Assembly (NCBI RefSeq): GCF_001434815.1
Contig: NZ_AZDU01000023.1
Coordinates: forward strand, 1 to 34,305
Direction: 5' to 3'
DNA: 34,305 nt
Source of the DNA: Lactobacillus equicursoris DSM 19284 = JCM 14600 = CIP 110162
GTDB taxonomy: Bacteria > Bacillota > Bacilli > Lactobacillales > Lactobacillaceae
A program made the translations under genes and the position numbers. Shown piece after piece: positions 726 to 8,114 of this stretch (positions are counted from its first letter, which is position 1; each line of letters starts with the position of its first letter). The notes below the pieces were generated by a model. It was not told the DNA's origin, did no database searches, and saw only the letters and a list, made by a program, of their open reading frames with translations.

Positions 726-3182
726 ATGCAAAATTCTTACAGTAATAGCAGCAATCAAGTTTTAGAAATTGCCAAGGAGCAGGCACAGGCTTTTCACCAC
801 CGCTTAATTGGCACCGAACACGTGCTTTTGGCCATCGTGATCGAGGCTGACGGTAAGGCGGGCAAGATCCTGCGGACCATGGGGGTGACTCCAACTGGCG
901 TACGCGAAGAAATCGAGCGCTACACGGGCTACGGTTCTTCAGCTGGCGCCTCCTTTATGGAAATGTCTCCTCGTTTGACCCTGGCTCTAGAAAATGCCAA
1001 GCGCAATTCTGAAGCCCGCGGCGCTAAGCAGATCGAAACGACCGATATCCTGCAGGCCTTGGTTTCCAGCGAGCAGATTTTGTCAGCCATGATTTTGAAA
1101 AATCTGGACGTGGACATCGACAACTTAAGAGATGAGTTAGACGATGCCAACAACTTGGACGATGGGGAAGTGAGCCGGCCTGAGTCAAGTCAGGTGAGTG
1201 GCCAATCCCAAACCCCGATGCTGGACCGCTTTGGCGTAGACCTAAACAAGCGGGCTAAAAACGGGGACATTGACCCAGTGATTGGCCGGCAAAAAGAGCT
1301 TGACCGGGTCATCCAAATTTTGTCCAGAAGAACCAAGAACAACCCGCTCTTAGTGGGGGAACCCGGCGTTGGTAAAACGGCGGTAGCAGAAGCCTTGGCC
1401 AGCGACATTGTGGCTAAAAAGGTGCCGCGCGATTTGCAGAACAAGCGCGTCGTTTCCTTGGACGTCAACAGCATGGTGGCCGGCACCCGCTACCGGGGCG
1501 AATTTGAGGAGCGGCTGGACCGCTTGATTAAGGAAGTCATCTCCAGCAAGAACGTAATCTTGTTTGTGGACGAAATCCACACCTTGGTCAAGGCCGGGGA
1601 TGCTGAAGGCGCGATGAGTGCTTCTAATACCTTAAAGCCGGCCCTGGCCCGGGGCGACATCCAATTAATTGGGGCAACGACCTTTGAGGAATACCGCAAG
1701 CACATGGAAAAGGATTCAGCCTTTGTTCGCCGCTTCCAGCTGGTGCGCCTGTCTGAGCCAAGCTCGGAAGAGACCTTGAAGATCTTGGAAGGGCTCAAGT
1801 CTAAGTACGAGGACTACCACCGGGTAACCCTGTCTGAAGAAGCCCTGCAGTCAGCAGTTAACCTGTCTAGCCGCTACATCGCCGACCGCTTCCAGCCAGA
1901 CAAGGCCATCGACTTGATCGATGAAGCCAGTGCCGCTGTCAAGCTGGCCAACGATACGGGCGACGACAAGGACCTGGCCAAGCTTGATCTGGAAATCAGC
2001 AGAACCTTAAAGGCTAAAAATGATGCAGCTGCTGAACAAAACTTTGTCCAAGCCGCTAACTTAAGAGACAAGGAAATTGACCTGCGGCAAAAGCGGTCAG
2101 ACCTGGCTAAGAAGTTGGCTGGCAAGGAAAGCAAGCGGGCCACGGTTGGTCCAGAAGACATTGCTAAGGTGGTCTCCATTTGGACTGGCGTGCCAGTTAC
2201 TCAGCTCAAGACCAGCGAAAACAAGCGCCTGGCCAACCTGGAAGGCATCTTGCATGAGCGGGTTATCGGCCAAGACGATGCCGTGAAGGCCGTGGCCAAT
2301 GCTATTCGGCGGTCCAGAAGCGGCTTGAAGGATGAAAATCGGCCAATCGGTTCCTTCTTATTCTTGGGGCCAACTGGGGTTGGGAAGACCGAACTGGCCA
2401 AGGCCGTGGCGGAAGCCGTCTTTGGCTCAGAAGATAACATCATCAGAGTCGACATGTCTGAATACATGGACAAGGAAGCTTCTTCTAAGCTGATTGGGTC
2501 AGCGCCTGGTTATGTCGGCTATGAAGAAGGCGGGCAGCTGTCTAACAAGGTTCGCGAGCATCCATACTCCGTTGTGCTTTTTGACGAAGTAGAAAAGGCT
2601 AACCCAGAAATCTTCAACGTCTTATTGAGAGTTCTTGATGAAGGCTTTTTGACTGACTCCTTAGGCCGCAAGATTGACTTTAGAAACACGATCATCATCA
2701 TGACTTCTAACCTGGGGTCCAGATCCTTGGAAGAAGACAACCAAGTCGGCTTTGCCAAGACCAAGCCAGACCAGGCCAAGGTTATCTCCGACAAGGTAGC
2801 CAAGGCAACCAAGGACTTCTTCAGACCGGAATTCTTGAACCGGATTGATGAAAAGATCGTCTTCAAGCCGTTAACGGCAAAGCAATTGCGGACGATTGTT
2901 ACTCTCTTGACCAGAAAATTGGTTAAGCGCCTGGCTGACAAGGACATTACCTTGAAGATCTCACCAGCCGCCTTGGACCAACTGGCTAAGGATGGCTACA
3001 ACCCAGAAATGGGTGCGCGGCCACTTCGCCGGACCATCCAAGATGAAGTGGAAGACCAACTGGCCCAATACCTGGTCAACGAAGACTTGCAAGCTGGCGA
3101 TACGATCAAGATTGGTGCCAGCCGCGGCAAGCTGAAGTTTGAAATCGTCAAGCCCCAAACTGGTGAAAAGATCAAGGGATAA
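726..3182 (+). CDS. clpC: ClpC, ATP-dependent Clp protease ATP-binding subunit
   Basis: This 818-aa Hsp100 unfoldase would feed damaged or adaptor-tagged proteins to ClpP in the cytoplasm. The N-terminal Clp repeat domain spans about 1-145. The first AAA+ module has Walker A GEPGVGKT (211-218) and Walker B LFVDE (279-283). A UVR-like coiled segment lies at about 436-463. The second AAA+ module has GPTGVGKT (548-555) and VVLFDE (616-621). A VGF tripeptide at 674-676 fits the ClpP-docking loop. The UVR region between the two AAA+ modules and the N-domain separate it from ClpE, ClpL and ClpB. It starts at ATG 726 after AAGGCGG and follows the methionine sulfoxide reductase gene by 12 nt. Placement of clpC just before rpoB is known in lactobacilli of the acidophilus group. 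Confidence 0.96.
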
Positions 3183-3271: not shown

Positions 3272-3300
3272 TTGTAATATTACCTCTACAAGCCTAGAAT
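3272..3300 (+). promoter_or_regulatory. Promoter of the ATA-start secreted-protein gene
   Basis: TTGTAA (3272-3277), a 17-bp spacer and TAGAAT (3295-3300) form a good sigma-A-type promoter. The predicted start is near 3307, about 35 nt before the coding region. The flanking 3183-3341 stretch is AT-rich. Only a weak 4-bp hairpin (CAAG/CTTG, 3193-3207) with downstream T runs could end the clpC transcript. Confidence 0.6.
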
Positions 3301-3341
3301 TTACCTCGTAAATTAGTTTTGAGTGTATTAGGAGGATATAA

Positions 3342-3872
3342 ATAAAAAGCTCAAGAAAAATCGTTGTAACGTTAATAGCTGCTATAAGTTTAGGACTTGC
3401 AGTAAGTCCATCAATTGTTAACGCGAGTGACAGCACACAGACAGTATCACCAAACTTAGAGAGTGAACTCTCTAAGTATGTCAAGATCGCCAATCACAAG
3501 TTTGTCGTAAGTGTTCCAGAAGGTACGAATGTATCTTCAGAAAAGCTTGCAGAATTACAGCAAGTGGTTGATACTGTCAATAAAGAATTAGCTGACTACA
3601 ATGTTGAAGTTGATCAATCTGTTCCTACAATCTCGCTTGCAAGAGCAAAAAGTAAAAAAAGCACATCGCGTCCCAAGCCAGTTGCGTATGGTGCAAATGG
3701 TTATTGGTACCGTGATAAAAAAGGTGGTTGGCACTATGTAGTAACAAAATCACCTGCACAAGCAGTGTTTGACGTCTTCAGAAATGGAGTGGAGTCTTCA
3801 CTCGGTGGTGGTTGGATTTCTGGTGCTAAAAAAACAAAAGCTTATCAAGATTTCATTAACGGAAGAAGATAA
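3342..3872 (+). CDS. Secreted protein of unknown function with ATA in the start position
   Basis: The reading frame is open from ATA at 3342 (stop TAA at 3339) to TAA at 3870-3872, 176 codons. AGGAGG at 3330-3335 sits 6 nt before the ATA, the ideal distance. Translated from there, residues 2-6 are KSSRK, residues 7-26 form a hydrophobic core, and VNA|S at 26-29 is a typical signal-peptidase I site. The mature part has a basic linker (about 101-113, RAKSKK...RPKP), an aromatic stretch (about 116-132, YWYRDKKGGWHY) and a GGGW-containing tail (155-158). Starting at the internal GTG 3564 would lose the signal peptide and has no Shine-Dalgarno. Codons are AT-rich compared with clpC and rpoB. I do not recognise the family. 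It is either expressed weakly from ATA or recently silenced by an ATG-to-ATA change. Confidence 0.65.
   Translation: MKSSRKIVVTLIAAISLGLAVSPSIVNASDSTQTVSPNLESELSKYVKIANHKFVVSVPEGTNVSSEKLAELQQVVDTVNKELADYNVEVDQSVPTISLARAKSKKSTSRPKPVAYGANGYWYRDKKGGWHYVVTKSPAQAVFDVFRNGVESSLGGGWISGAKKTKAYQDFINGRR
3454..3477 (+). repeat. Perfect 10-bp inverted repeat inside the secreted-protein gene
   Basis: ACTTAGAGAG and CTCTCTAAGT flank a TGAA tetraloop, giving a perfect 10-bp hairpin just after the signal-peptide codons. It encodes part of the mature N-terminus (LESELSK). No T tract follows it, so it is not an intrinsic terminator. Confidence 0.9.
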
Positions 3873-3888
3873 TTTTTGGAGGCAGATT

Positions 3889-4233
3889 ATGTTTGGCAAG
3901 AAGAAAAAAGCTGAAGCTGCTAAGGCAGAACAAGAAGCAAGCAAGAAGACTGACGGGCGGATCCTACTTTATAGCGACATCATCGACGCTCTTTACGACG
4001 AAATGCCAAGAGAAGAGCGGGAGGCCCTGCTGGAAGCTAAGCAGCAGCTGGAACAGAAGGTCTACCTGGGTAAGGTGATGCGGGACTTGCGGATCGCTTT
4101 AGAGCCGGTCGCGATCAAATCCCAGCTCAGTCCGCAAGGCAAGCAGATTTTCTGGAATATTACGGCTGGCGGCTACCAGCTCACCGGGGTTGGTCTGGCC
4201 ACCCAGGCAGCCATGCTTTTTAGCGGCCGCTAG
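3889..4233 (+). CDS. Conserved-looking small protein of unknown function
   Basis: This 114-aa protein is not one I recognise. It opens with a lysine/alanine/glutamate-rich charged segment (residues 2-20), continues as probable amphipathic helices (about 26-85, rich in E, R, L and K), and ends in a small hydrophobic stretch (ITAGGYQL... to AAMLFSGR) with no clear transmembrane helix. ATG 3889 is preceded by GGAGG (3878-3882) 6 nt away; upstream in-frame codons overlap the previous gene in another frame and are not used. It lies 16 nt after the ATA-start gene and just before the rpoB promoter. Its codon use resembles the housekeeping genes, unlike its upstream neighbour. It is probably cytoplasmic. 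It could be an old resident of the clpC-rpoB interval or a partner of the secreted protein. Confidence 0.75.
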   Translation: MFGKKKKAEAAKAEQEASKKTDGRILLYSDIIDALYDEMPREEREALLEAKQQLEQKVYLGKVMRDLRIALEPVAIKSQLSPQGKQIFWNITAGGYQLTGVGLATQAAMLFSGR

Positions 4234-4271: not shown

Positions 4272-4454
4272 TGATTTAAAAGGCTGAAGTTCAGGATTTT
4301 ACTGATATATTGTCCAGTAAAATGATAGAGACAAAAACGACAGGTTCGTTTTTGTCTTTTTTATGCTCAAAATACCGGAATTACTCAGCTTTTTTAAAAT
4401 GTAACACAAATGTAATATTTGCTTTCTTCAAACAGGATAGAAAGGATGTTTTCC
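4272..4454 (+). ncRNA. Structured rpoB leader (candidate Lacto-rpoB element)
   Basis: The leader holds a 9-bp hairpin (ATTTTACTG/CAGTAAAAT, 4296-4323) and, 6 nt further, an 11-bp terminator hairpin with a T6 tract (4330-4362). About 90 nt of AU-rich RNA then lead to rpoB. A conserved Lacto-rpoB RNA motif is known in 5' leaders of lactic acid bacterial rpoB genes. Position supports membership, but I could not compare to the covariance model. The arrangement suggests attenuation of RNA polymerase synthesis. Confidence 0.55.
4330..4362 (+). terminator. Intrinsic terminator inside the rpoB leader
   Basis: GACAAAAACGA pairs perfectly with TCGTTTTTGTC around a CAGGT loop, followed by TTTTTT at 4357-4362. 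It lies downstream of the rpoB promoter and about 92 nt before the start codon, so it is placed to act as an attenuator and not as an end-of-gene terminator for the previous gene. Confidence 0.8.
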
Positions 4455-7400
4455 TTGCTAAACGGACACGTAGTAAATTACGGACAACACCGGACAAGAC
4501 GCAGCTTTTCCCGGATTAAAGAAATCCTGCCGCTGCCAAACTTGACGGATGTGCAAACTGAATCATACAAGTGGTTCCTTGATCAAGGTATTAAGGAAGT
4601 TTTTGACGACATCTTGCCAATCAGCGATACTTCAGGTCGCTTGACTTTGGAATATGTCGACTACAAGCTGCAAGAACCAAAGTACACTGTTGACGAATCA
4701 CGCAAGCACGATGCAACTTACTCAGCACCAATGCACGTGACTTTGAAATTGACTAACCACGAAACTGGCGAAATCAAGACTCAAGACGTCTTCTTTGGCG
4801 ACTTGCCTTTGATGACTAAGTCTGGTTCTTTCATCGTTAACGGGGCTGAAAGAGTTATCGTTTCTCAGCTGGTTAGATCACCAGGCGTTTACTACAGCGG
4901 TGAATTTGACAAGAACGGCCGTCAAATCTTCGGTACTACGGTAATCCCTAACCGGGGGGCATGGCTTGAATTTGAAACTGACGCTAAGAACATTTCTTAC
5001 GTGCGCGTTGACCGGACTAGAAAGCTGCCTTTGTCAGTTTTAGTACGGGCTTTGGGCTTTGGCTCAGACAGCGAAATTAAGGAAATCTTTGGCGACAGCG
5101 ACACCTTGAACCTGACTTTGGACAAGGACGTTCACAAGAACCCTGCTGACAGCCGCGTAGCTGAAGCCTTGAAGGACATCTACGACCGTCTGCGTCCAGG
5201 TGAACCAAAGACGACTGATTCTTCACGCAGCCTGTTGGTATCACGCTTCTTTGACCCACGCCGTTACGACTTGGCAGCTGTTGGCCGCTACAAGGTTAAC
5301 AAGAAGCTGAGCTTGAAGAACCGCCTTTTGGGCTACACTTTGGCTGAAACTCTGGCTGACCCAGACACTGGGGAAGTTTTGGCAGCTAAGGGCACTGTTG
5401 TTAACAACGAAGTGATGGACACTTTGAAGGAATACCTTGACCGGGACGACTTCAAGACTGTGACCTACACTCCATCAGAAGAAGGTGCCATTCCTGAACC
5501 AATCACTGTTCAAGAAATCAAGGTCTTCTCCCGGGAAGTGCCAGACCGCGAAATCAAGCTGATTTCAAACGGCCACATTGCTGAAGACGTGAAGTGCATC
5601 ACTCCAGCTGACATCTTGGCTTCTGTCAACTACTTCTTGGAACTGCAAGAAGGCGTTGGTACGGTTGACGACATCGACCACTTGGGTAATCGCCGGATTC
5701 GCCGTGTTGGTGAACTTTTGCAAAACCAAATGCGGATTGGTTTGGCCAGAATGGAACGTGTCGTTCGCGAACGGATGTCAATCCAAGACGCAGCTACGGT
5801 AACTCCACAACAACTGATCAACATTCGTCCAATCGTTGGTTCCATCAAGGAATTCTTTGGTTCATCCCAACTTTCCCAGTTCATGGACCAAAACAACCCA
5901 TTGGGTGAATTGACCCACAAGCGTCGTATGTCAGCCTTGGGGCCTGGTGGTTTGTCTCGTGACCGTGCGGGCTATGAAGTTCGTGACGTTCACTACACCC
6001 ACTACGGTCGCCTGTGCCCAATTGAAACGCCAGAAGGTCCTAACATCGGTTTGATCAACTCCATGGCAACTTACGCCATCATCAACAAGTACGGCTTCTT
6101 GGAAACCCCATACCGCCGCGTATCTTGGACTACCCACAAGGTTACCGACAAGATCGACTACTTGACTGCCGATGTAGAAGACAACTACATTATCGCTGGG
6201 GCCAACACGCCACTTAACGAAGATGGCTCATTCGTTGATGACGTGATCCTTTGCCGTCACCGGGAAGACAACGTCGAAGTAAGTCCTGACCGGATCGACT
6301 ACATGGACGTTATTCCAAAGCAGGTTGTTTCCGTAACCTCTGCATGTATTCCATTCTTGGAAAACGACGACTCAAACCGGGCCTTGATGGGGGCCAACCA
6401 CCAACGTCAGGCTGTTCCTTTGATCAACCCACACAGCCCACTGGTTGCAACTGGTATGGAATACCGTGCCGGTCACGACTCCGGTGACGCTTTGCTGGCT
6501 GAAGCTGACGGTGTCGTTGAATACGTAGACGCTAACGAAATCCGCGTTCGCCGCGACGACCAAACCCTTGACAGCTACACGCTTGAAAAGTACCGTCGTT
6601 CAAACGCAACTAAGAACTACAACCAAACTCCAAACGTTTCAACTGGTGACCACGTTGTCAAGGGCCAAGTAATTGCCAACGGTCCATCTATGGCTGACGG
6701 CGAACTGTCCTTGGGTCAAAACCCAGTTATTGCCTTCACCACTTGGAACATGTACAACTTCGAAGACGCCATCATGCTGAGCGAACGTTTGGTTAAGGAT
6801 GACGTCTACACTTCAATCCACATTGAAGACTACGACTCAGAAGCTCGTGACACCAAGCTGGGGCCTGAAGAAATTACTCGGGAAATCCCTAACGTTGGTG
6901 AAGACGCGTTGAAGGACCTGGACGAAAATGGGATCATCCGGATCGGTGCTGAAGTTCACGACGGTGACATCTTGGTTGGTAAGGTTACCCCTAAGGGGAT
7001 TACCGAACTGAGCGCTGAAGAAAGACTTTTGCACGCTATCTTCGGTGAAAAGGCCCGCGAAGTTCGTGACACTTCCTTGAAGGTGCCACACGGCGGTGGC
7101 GGTGTCGTTCAAGACGTTCAAGTCTTCACCCGTGAAGCCGGCGACGAACTGGCTCCAGGCGTTAACACCCTGGTTCGGGTTTACATCGTCCAAAAGAGAA
7201 AGATCCAAGTCGGTGACAAGATGTCCGGTCGTCACGGTAACAAGGGTACGGTTGCCCTGGTTGCTCCAGTAGAAGACATGCCATACTTGCCAGACGGTAC
7301 GCCAGTCGACATCTGCTTGAACCCAATGGGTGTGCCTTCACGTATGAACATCGGGCAGCTTTTGGAAATCCACTTGGGCCGGGCAGCTCGCGCACTTGGG

Positions 7401-8114
7401 ATCCACGTTGCTACTCCAGTATTCGACGGGGCTAGCGAAGATGACGTTTGGAACTTGGTAAAAGAAGCCGGCGTTGACTCAGACGGTAAGACTGTTCTTT
7501 ACGACGGCCGGACCGGTGAGCCATTCCACAACCGGGTATCAGTTGGGGTAATGTACTACCTGAAGCTGACTCACATGGTTGACGACAAGATCCACGCTCG
7601 TTCCATCGGGCCATACTCACTGGTTACCCAACAACCACTTGGTGGTAAGGCACAATTTGGTGGCCAGCGGTTTGGTGAAATGGAAGTTTGGGCTTTGGAA
7701 GCCTACGGTGCAGCCTACACTCTGCAAGAAATCTTGACTTACAAGTCAGACGACGTTGTTGGCCGTGTTAAGGCATATGAAGCCATCGTTAAGGGCGAAA
7801 GAATTCCTAAGCCAGGCGTTCCAGAATCATTCCGGGTTTTGGTTAAGGAATTGCAATCATTGGGTCTGGACCTGCGCGTTTTGGACAGCGACGAAAACGA
7901 AGTTGAACTGCGCGACATGGATGAAGACTCCAATGAACACGTAAACATCGATACTTTATCTCGCCTTGCCGAAGCGCAAGAGAAGAAGAAGTTGGCCGAA
8001 GAAGAAGCCGAAATCGCTGAAGAAGAAGCAGCAAACGCACAAGCAGCTGATCAAACTGCCGATGCCGATGCAACTGTAGACAGTGCCAGCGATGACGAAA
8101 ATGCTTCTAAGTAA
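4455..8114 (+). CDS. rpoB: DNA-directed RNA polymerase subunit beta
   Basis: This is the catalytic beta subunit of RNA polymerase, 1219 aa. I place the start at TTG 4455 ([10 protein letters not shown]...), the family's usual N-terminus, with AAAGGA 8 nt upstream. The in-frame ATG at 4446 adds three residues and abuts the Shine-Dalgarno. The rifampicin pocket (nt about 5851-5945; [27 protein letters not shown]) keeps the wild-type D, H, R and S residues, so no classical resistance change is visible. The C-terminus is a long lysine/glutamate then aspartate-rich tail after DMDEDSNEH (nt about 7970-8111). The gene is 15 nt before rpoC. Unlike in Bacillus, rplK/A/J/L are not upstream; clpC is. 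Confidence 0.97.

Follow-up and report, generated by a model that had tools for sequence, protein, structure and literature searches.

A garvicin Q-type (GarQ-type) bacteriocin destined for Sec export in Lactobacillus equicursoris DSM 19284 has probably been disarmed, or had its output strongly lowered, by a mutation of its start codon, with the immunity gene behind it left on. The locus lies within a stretch of 34,305 nucleotides (the window), a chromosomal contig of a single draft assembly of 2.05 Mb in 182 contigs, and the host is placed in the delbrueckii group of Lactobacillus because the loci of its relatives point there. Two small genes occupy the interval between clp, which ends at 3182, and rpoB: the bacteriocin precursor gene and then the immunity gene. 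In the proposed course of events, the ancestral ATG of a class IId GarQ-type precursor lodged between clp and rpoB would have changed to ATA. Ribosomes would still find the strong AGGAGG, and initiation at AUA would be weak and discriminated against by IF3, the output falling to a small fraction (around a tenth, if the site behaves like AUA starts of Staphylococcus aureus) or to effectively nothing. The ATG-started immunity gene would be unaffected. Reduced production is the outcome best supported here, and the fall in output itself, which we infer, is judged rather likely. The locus would then be a clean natural example of a weapon weakened through its start codon with the shield kept, and no other examined member of the group has the weapon at that site. 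The features concerned are as follows.

726..3182, + strand: upstream neighbour, by sequence likeness presumably a Clp ATPase (clpC/clpE type); ORF list; chromosomal anchor for the loci of relatives
3272..3300, + strand: promoter-like site TTGTAA-N17-TAGAAT; motif scan, 9/12
3330..3335, + strand: Shine-Dalgarno sequence AGGAGG, six bases 5' of the ATA; read from the sequence
3342..3344, + strand: ATA at the start-codon position; relatives have ATG (one GTG)
3342..3872, + strand: bacteriocin precursor gene, 176 codons plus TAA (3870-3872); ORF and homology
3342..3425, + strand: Sec-type signal peptide, residues 1-28, VNA↓S; translation read by eye and N-termini of homologues
3426..3644, + strand: probable pro-region, approximately residues 29-101, found also in precursors whose C-termini are unrelated; comparison with other precursors and structural model
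3687..3806, + strand: garvicin Q core (GANGY, YVVTK, NGV); NF033837, match to GarQ in the PDB, structural model
3789..3791, + strand: GTG encoding Val150, at the position of the nGw Trp of other cores; 17 other cores
3889..4233, + strand: immunity gene of the enterocin A immunity type, ATG start; PF08951, Shine-Dalgarno GGAGG at 3878-3882
4446..8114, + strand: downstream neighbour, presumably rpoB; ORF listed from TTG 4419, with 4446 the likely start

The name rpoB, like those of rpoC and the ribosomal protein genes of the window, is presumed from sequence likeness. The G+C content of the precursor gene is 39%, against 47% for the window.

The ATA at 3342-3344 opens a frame of 175 further sense codons that ends at the TAA at 3870-3872, and AGGAGG stands 6 nt before it; the original prediction had described both, and the sequence agrees. 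The frame is closed directly upstream by an in-frame TAA (3339-3341), which rules out a canonical start upstream of 3342, and the earliest in-frame ATG, GTG or TTG is codon 75, the GTG at 3564, so that, as had been predicted, none of these codons would keep the signal peptide. That GTG was rejected as the true start: no Shine-Dalgarno sequence is seen before it by eye, and the signal peptide would be lost. Read by eye from the translation, the signal peptide follows immediately as IKSSRK-IVVTLIAAISLGLAVSPSIV-NA↓S, matching its earlier description (KSSRK, a hydrophobic core, VNA↓S). By homology the frame is a real gene, with 3342 as the position at which its relatives carry their start codon and where translation had been proposed to begin. 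The “good promoter” of the original prediction fares less well. The site TTGTAA-N17-TAGAAT is present, but it matches at 9 of 12 positions, and four such sites were found in the 1.4 kb scanned against 2.1 expected by chance, which makes the adjective generous. Its -10 element, TAGAAT, pairs with a TATAAT of L. nasalidis in an alignment whose score is reached by 2 of 1000 shuffles and which is suggestive, the shuffles being mononucleotide ones of AT-rich DNA; the match at 3272-3300 is poorer than this L. nasalidis counterpart.

An eight-codon ORF that begins with TTG (3319-3345) contains the Shine-Dalgarno sequence, and its TAA overlaps the ATA. The precursor might thus be translated by coupling from this ORF or by a frameshift out of it, a route that the position of the ORF's end, within the ATA itself, would permit. 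It is scarcely credible, as the TTG has no Shine-Dalgarno sequence of its own and RNA folding around the start shows nothing unusual (z -0.16).

The product is identified by comparison of its C-terminus with known families. This region matches NF033837 (NCBIfam, garvicin Q family class II bacteriocin) with 55.5 bits against a cut-off of 33 (4e-15), and the solved garvicin Q chains in the PDB with 6e-4; filing in the garvicin Q family rests on the HMM score, the nGw motif and a double-glycine leader not being conditions of the HMM family. GarQ-like peptides are class IId bacteriocins that target the Man-PTS, and their prototype, garvicin Q, carries a short double-glycine leader. The window gene shares with garvicin Q the core HMM, the motifs gaNGY and YxVTK (as GANGY and YVVTK), an adjacent immunity gene, and modelled strands and a helix; it differs in its Sec signal peptide, a pro-region of ~70 residues, a Val in nGw and the ATA start. 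By eye, the double-glycine leader is absent and the order of parts is signal peptide, pro-region, basic linker and GarQ core; maturation would presumably proceed by a protease cutting at the basic linker. An AlphaFold model of the precursor, built from two sequences (mean pLDDT 58.9), gives the pro-region a helix-strand-strand-helix arrangement at 37-85 and the core three strands and a helix, the arrangement given for GarQ-like peptides (PMC11403280). A search of the PDB with this model was uninformative (best Z 2.4). Taken together, the comparisons identify the gene as encoding a GarQ-type bacteriocin precursor, and its product may have bacteriocin activity.

The original prediction held that everything except the start codon is intact. 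This stands for the signal peptide and for the frame, in which the ATA start is the sole lesion, with no stop codon and no frameshift; it does not stand for the promoter, a weaker match than in L. nasalidis, nor for the core, in which one motif residue is changed. Both gaNGY and YxVTK are listed as GarQ-like family motifs, and nGw is given as a consensus motif of active GarQ-like peptides, with a lower-case w (PMC11403280). The window core reads NGV at the last of these, with Val150 for the Trp that every one of the 17 other distinct cores read carries, a count that left out three matches below the family cut-off (L098 and L099, both with Trp, and L100, which stops short). Because GarQ tolerates replacement of the adjacent N and G at a cost of 2-8-fold (PMC11403280), the change from Trp to Val would be a mild mark of decay; the variants named in the mutagenesis section of that paper do not include the Trp. 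The change may alter specificity instead of marking decay.

The ancestral state of the start codon was sought in other precursors with readable N-termini. Sixteen were compared, 13 from rows of the search of the genus and three from annotated plasmid rows, and these are not same-site orthologues; the starts of the 13 were assigned by us from Shine-Dalgarno sequence and frame, L002 offering several in-frame ATGs and L011 being taken as GTG. Four rows stand outside the count, L006, L008 and L013 having other leader types and L012 duplicating L002. ATG was found in 14, GTG in one and a frame broken near the start in one. ATA is thus present in 0/16 and is derived, the ancestral start being ATG as in relatives, from which it differs by one base. 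Precursor L009 has an identical leader, AGGAGGATATAAA. An identical layout is seen in L. pasteurii (G036/L002), in two Lactobacillus genomes (L003, L045) and on the L. plantarum plasmid pEM10 (L088; WP_017260784.1, named garvicin Q family class II bacteriocin by NCBI), and in all four an immunity-type gene lies directly downstream of the GarQ-type precursor. The precursors of pEM10 (~35% identity to that of the window) and L. pasteurii (36-42%) resemble the window gene in signal peptide, pro-region, GarQ core and downstream immunity gene, whereas they lie at other loci, start with ATG and keep the Trp. Two plasmids of Furfurilactobacillus rossiae score equally with the L. plantarum plasmid precursor. 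Decay is frequent in the wider family, related precursors being interrupted by stop codons in 4 of 13 other matched genomes of the genus.

With a canonical start in 15 of 16 homologues and a single draft assembly of 182 contigs as the source, it might be supposed that the ATA is a sequencing or assembly error and that the true base gives an ordinary ATG. This is improbable: the gene shows another departure, an independent one, in the replacement of Trp by Val, and substitutions away from long homopolymers are uncommon as assembly errors. No confirmed match from a second strain of the species was found in the genome contigs, from which very near genomes may have been left out, or in the viral contigs, and the plasmids searched for the precursor gene gave distant homologues only.

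Whether an AUA can serve as a start in this host is informed by infC, and the comparison with infC-type starts drawn in the original prediction proves apt, since infC of the window genome itself begins with ATA (L087:1474-1476) behind GGAGGTGA. Of 75 genomes of the genus searched, 67 matched and 41, the window genome included, were read (37 by script and L128, L138, L139 and L140 by direct reading). In these 41, the infC start is ATA (38 genomes) or ATT (three), with no canonical codon at that position, and GGAGGTGA, six bases and the start codon follow one another in each; in some of the genes an ATG lacking a Shine-Dalgarno sequence lies a few codons downstream. Because infC starts at ATA or ATT across the genus, AUA initiation at 3342 would be possible in principle. 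Among the papers searched, none joined infC, Lactobacillus and AUA. The start of infC is misplaced by gene callers restricted to ATG, GTG and TTG, and, AUA being usual for infC in Lactobacillus, gene callers there should not dismiss AUA-started genes.

That AUA is here a selected weak start, an IF3-gated attenuator by which the bacteriocin is made at low dose or when IF3 is limiting while immunity is constitutive, draws on this record from the genus and on the conserved AUA starts of infC and ccpN in other Firmicutes (PMC13009471), as well as on a frame that is open with GANGY and YVVTK kept. This reading is nonetheless unlikely. No near-cognate start is conserved among the relatives of the precursor, 15 of the 16 having ATG or GTG and the sixteenth a broken frame, and the bacteriocin gene is missing in four relatives that have the immunity gene. 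Nor is there a genome-wide excess of AGGAGG-N5-8-ATA sites, with 18 against 26 for a control of the reversed pattern, although the site at 3342 is unique among the 18 in heading an ORF of >100 codons and having no canonical start in the first 20. The Shine-Dalgarno sequence at 3342 is the six-base AGGAGG, against GGAGGTGA at infC, and extended pairing is absent at 3342, a comparison made against an assumed 3' end of the 16S rRNA. In S. aureus, by contrast, the Shine-Dalgarno motifs of infC, cvfC1 and ccpN are extended ones (PMC13009471). Less likely again is that AUA, the near-cognate codon of infC across the genus, is a selected dose control tying the bacteriocin to IF3 level, ribosome state and growth rate, with AUG-driven immunity high; we know of no bacteriocin under IF3-gated initiation.

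The S. aureus genes infC, ccpN and citZ likewise have AUA as their start codon; in infC and ccpN it is conserved in Firmicutes and in citZ it is lineage-specific (PMC13009471). In infC and ccpN the AUA is conserved and has an extended Shine-Dalgarno motif; the AUA of the window gene is known from one genome, has a six-base motif and is a putative start. When ccpN, citZ and cvfC1, the last with an AUU start, were assayed as reporters in S. aureus, poor medium yielded ~10% of the AUG level; in rich medium the ccpN AUA reporter reached up to 30% (PMC13009471). In lactobacilli, AUA initiation could readily be assayed with a reporter built on the locus.

These reporters, not being silent, also bear on the reading of the gene as a dead pseudogene with zero product, of which start loss is only the first visible lesion. 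All that favours a disarmed or attenuated bacteriocin favours this as well, together with the weak promoter match and the lost Trp; it is considered improbable given the ~10% output of such starts in S. aureus (PMC13009471) and a precursor ORF without stop or frameshift. The open frame is itself weak evidence of function. About 3.8-4.5% of random substitutions in the precursor ORF would create a stop codon. On branches 0.013-0.034 substitutions per site long (half of the immunity-allele dS to G060, 0.026, or G090, 0.068), and with indels not counted, the chance that no new stop arises is ~0.45-0.77; the open frame is thus unremarkable if decay set in at or after the divergence of the immunity alleles. 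A branch of 0.2 substitutions per site lowers the probability to 0.01-0.02, and older silencing is less compatible with the open frame. The original prediction had posed an alternative between a weak near-cognate start and recent silencing. This was the correct frame for the question, and the evidence leans to loss or strong attenuation. Against a disarmed or strongly attenuated bacteriocin can be set the otherwise open ORF and the use of AUA in the genus by infC, so that useful amounts of the bacteriocin may still be produced. The bacteriocin gene could also have been gained here and not lost in relatives.

The present analysis adds to the original prediction the GarQ-type product, the downstream immunity gene, the ATG of relatives and the absence of the gene in the nearest relatives. 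The immunity gene at 3889-4233 matches PF08951 (Pfam, enterocin A immunity) with 24.1 bits against a cut-off of 22.1 and begins 16 bases after the bacteriocin stop codon, and the two genes are probably carried on a shared transcript. Four relatives carry an immunity gene at the clp-rpoB site, namely G060, an uncultured Lactobacillus (G090), L. nasalidis YZ01 (G074) and L. delbrueckii DSM 20074 (G065), and in 4/4 the bacteriocin gene is absent from it. The infC N-terminus PQKQN, found in the window genome and these four (5/5) against 0/36 of the other genus genomes read, supports as a marker that the five form one group. Immunity retention is not universal, the copy of L. delbrueckii DSM 20074 being broken (28 codons). 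The clp-rpoB site would accordingly present a series of disarmament, in which the start codon is lost in the window genome, the bacteriocin gene is wholly gone with immunity kept in three relatives, and immunity is broken too in L. delbrueckii DSM 20074. The junctions of G060 and G090 retain AGATAATTTTT, an exact copy of the window sequence that runs from the last bacteriocin codon through the stop into the spacer, and the intergenic stretch of L. nasalidis aligns with the window promoter region (TATAAT against TAGAAT); these remnants favour loss in the relatives over gain here, and the polarity of the losses would follow this direction. Orphan immunity genes of lactic acid bacteria offer a parallel, as these relatives and L. 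gigeriorum, whose immunity gene is close to that of L. pasteurii and has no bacteriocin gene before it, likewise have immunity without bacteriocin. The window locus differs from them in still having its bacteriocin gene, minus the canonical start.

The immunity gene appears to be under constraint, since dN is 0.076 against a dS of 0.38 between the window and L. nasalidis. Its divergence from the alleles of G060 and G090 is far below that of the neighbouring clp: dS is 0.026 in the immunity gene and 1.06 in the last 600 bases of clp for G060, and 0.068 and 1.17, respectively, for G090. Comparison of the window with G060 gives 80% identity for clp, 99.4% for the immunity gene, 91% for the spacer that follows and 88% for the beginning of rpoB. 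The simplest reading of these values would be that species have recently exchanged the immunity allele at this one chromosomal site, and the allele now beside the window bacteriocin may therefore differ from the one with which the bacteriocin evolved. An immunity protein 100% identical to that of the window is also encoded in JAEDAG010000001.1, titled Faecalicatena absiana YH-C36a, a title that looks wrong, the gene being otherwise one of Lactobacillus.

Additionally, a similar secreted N-terminus (YVKVENNxFVLxxP...) is joined to unrelated C-termini in seven sequences (L047, L048, L009, L010, L014, L089 and L091). The C-termini attached to this common region comprise the GarQ core, a WFWWG...SNAAV type and an HWNY...GWQ type, an arrangement resembling that of a polymorphic bacteriocin platform. 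A Pfam search of eight related precursors gave no family above cut-off and one match below it, and in an NCBIfam search of nine precursors the GarQ core, in three, was the sole match above cut-off; in the precursors scanned, the N-terminal part is thus covered by no model of either collection above cut-off. Copies on plasmids of L. plantarum CYLB47 and Pediococcus (L090, L145, L146 and L147), annotated as garvicin Q family, consist of the core only; the signal peptide and most of the pro-region were not found before these four cores, and these annotated genes may be truncated remnants.
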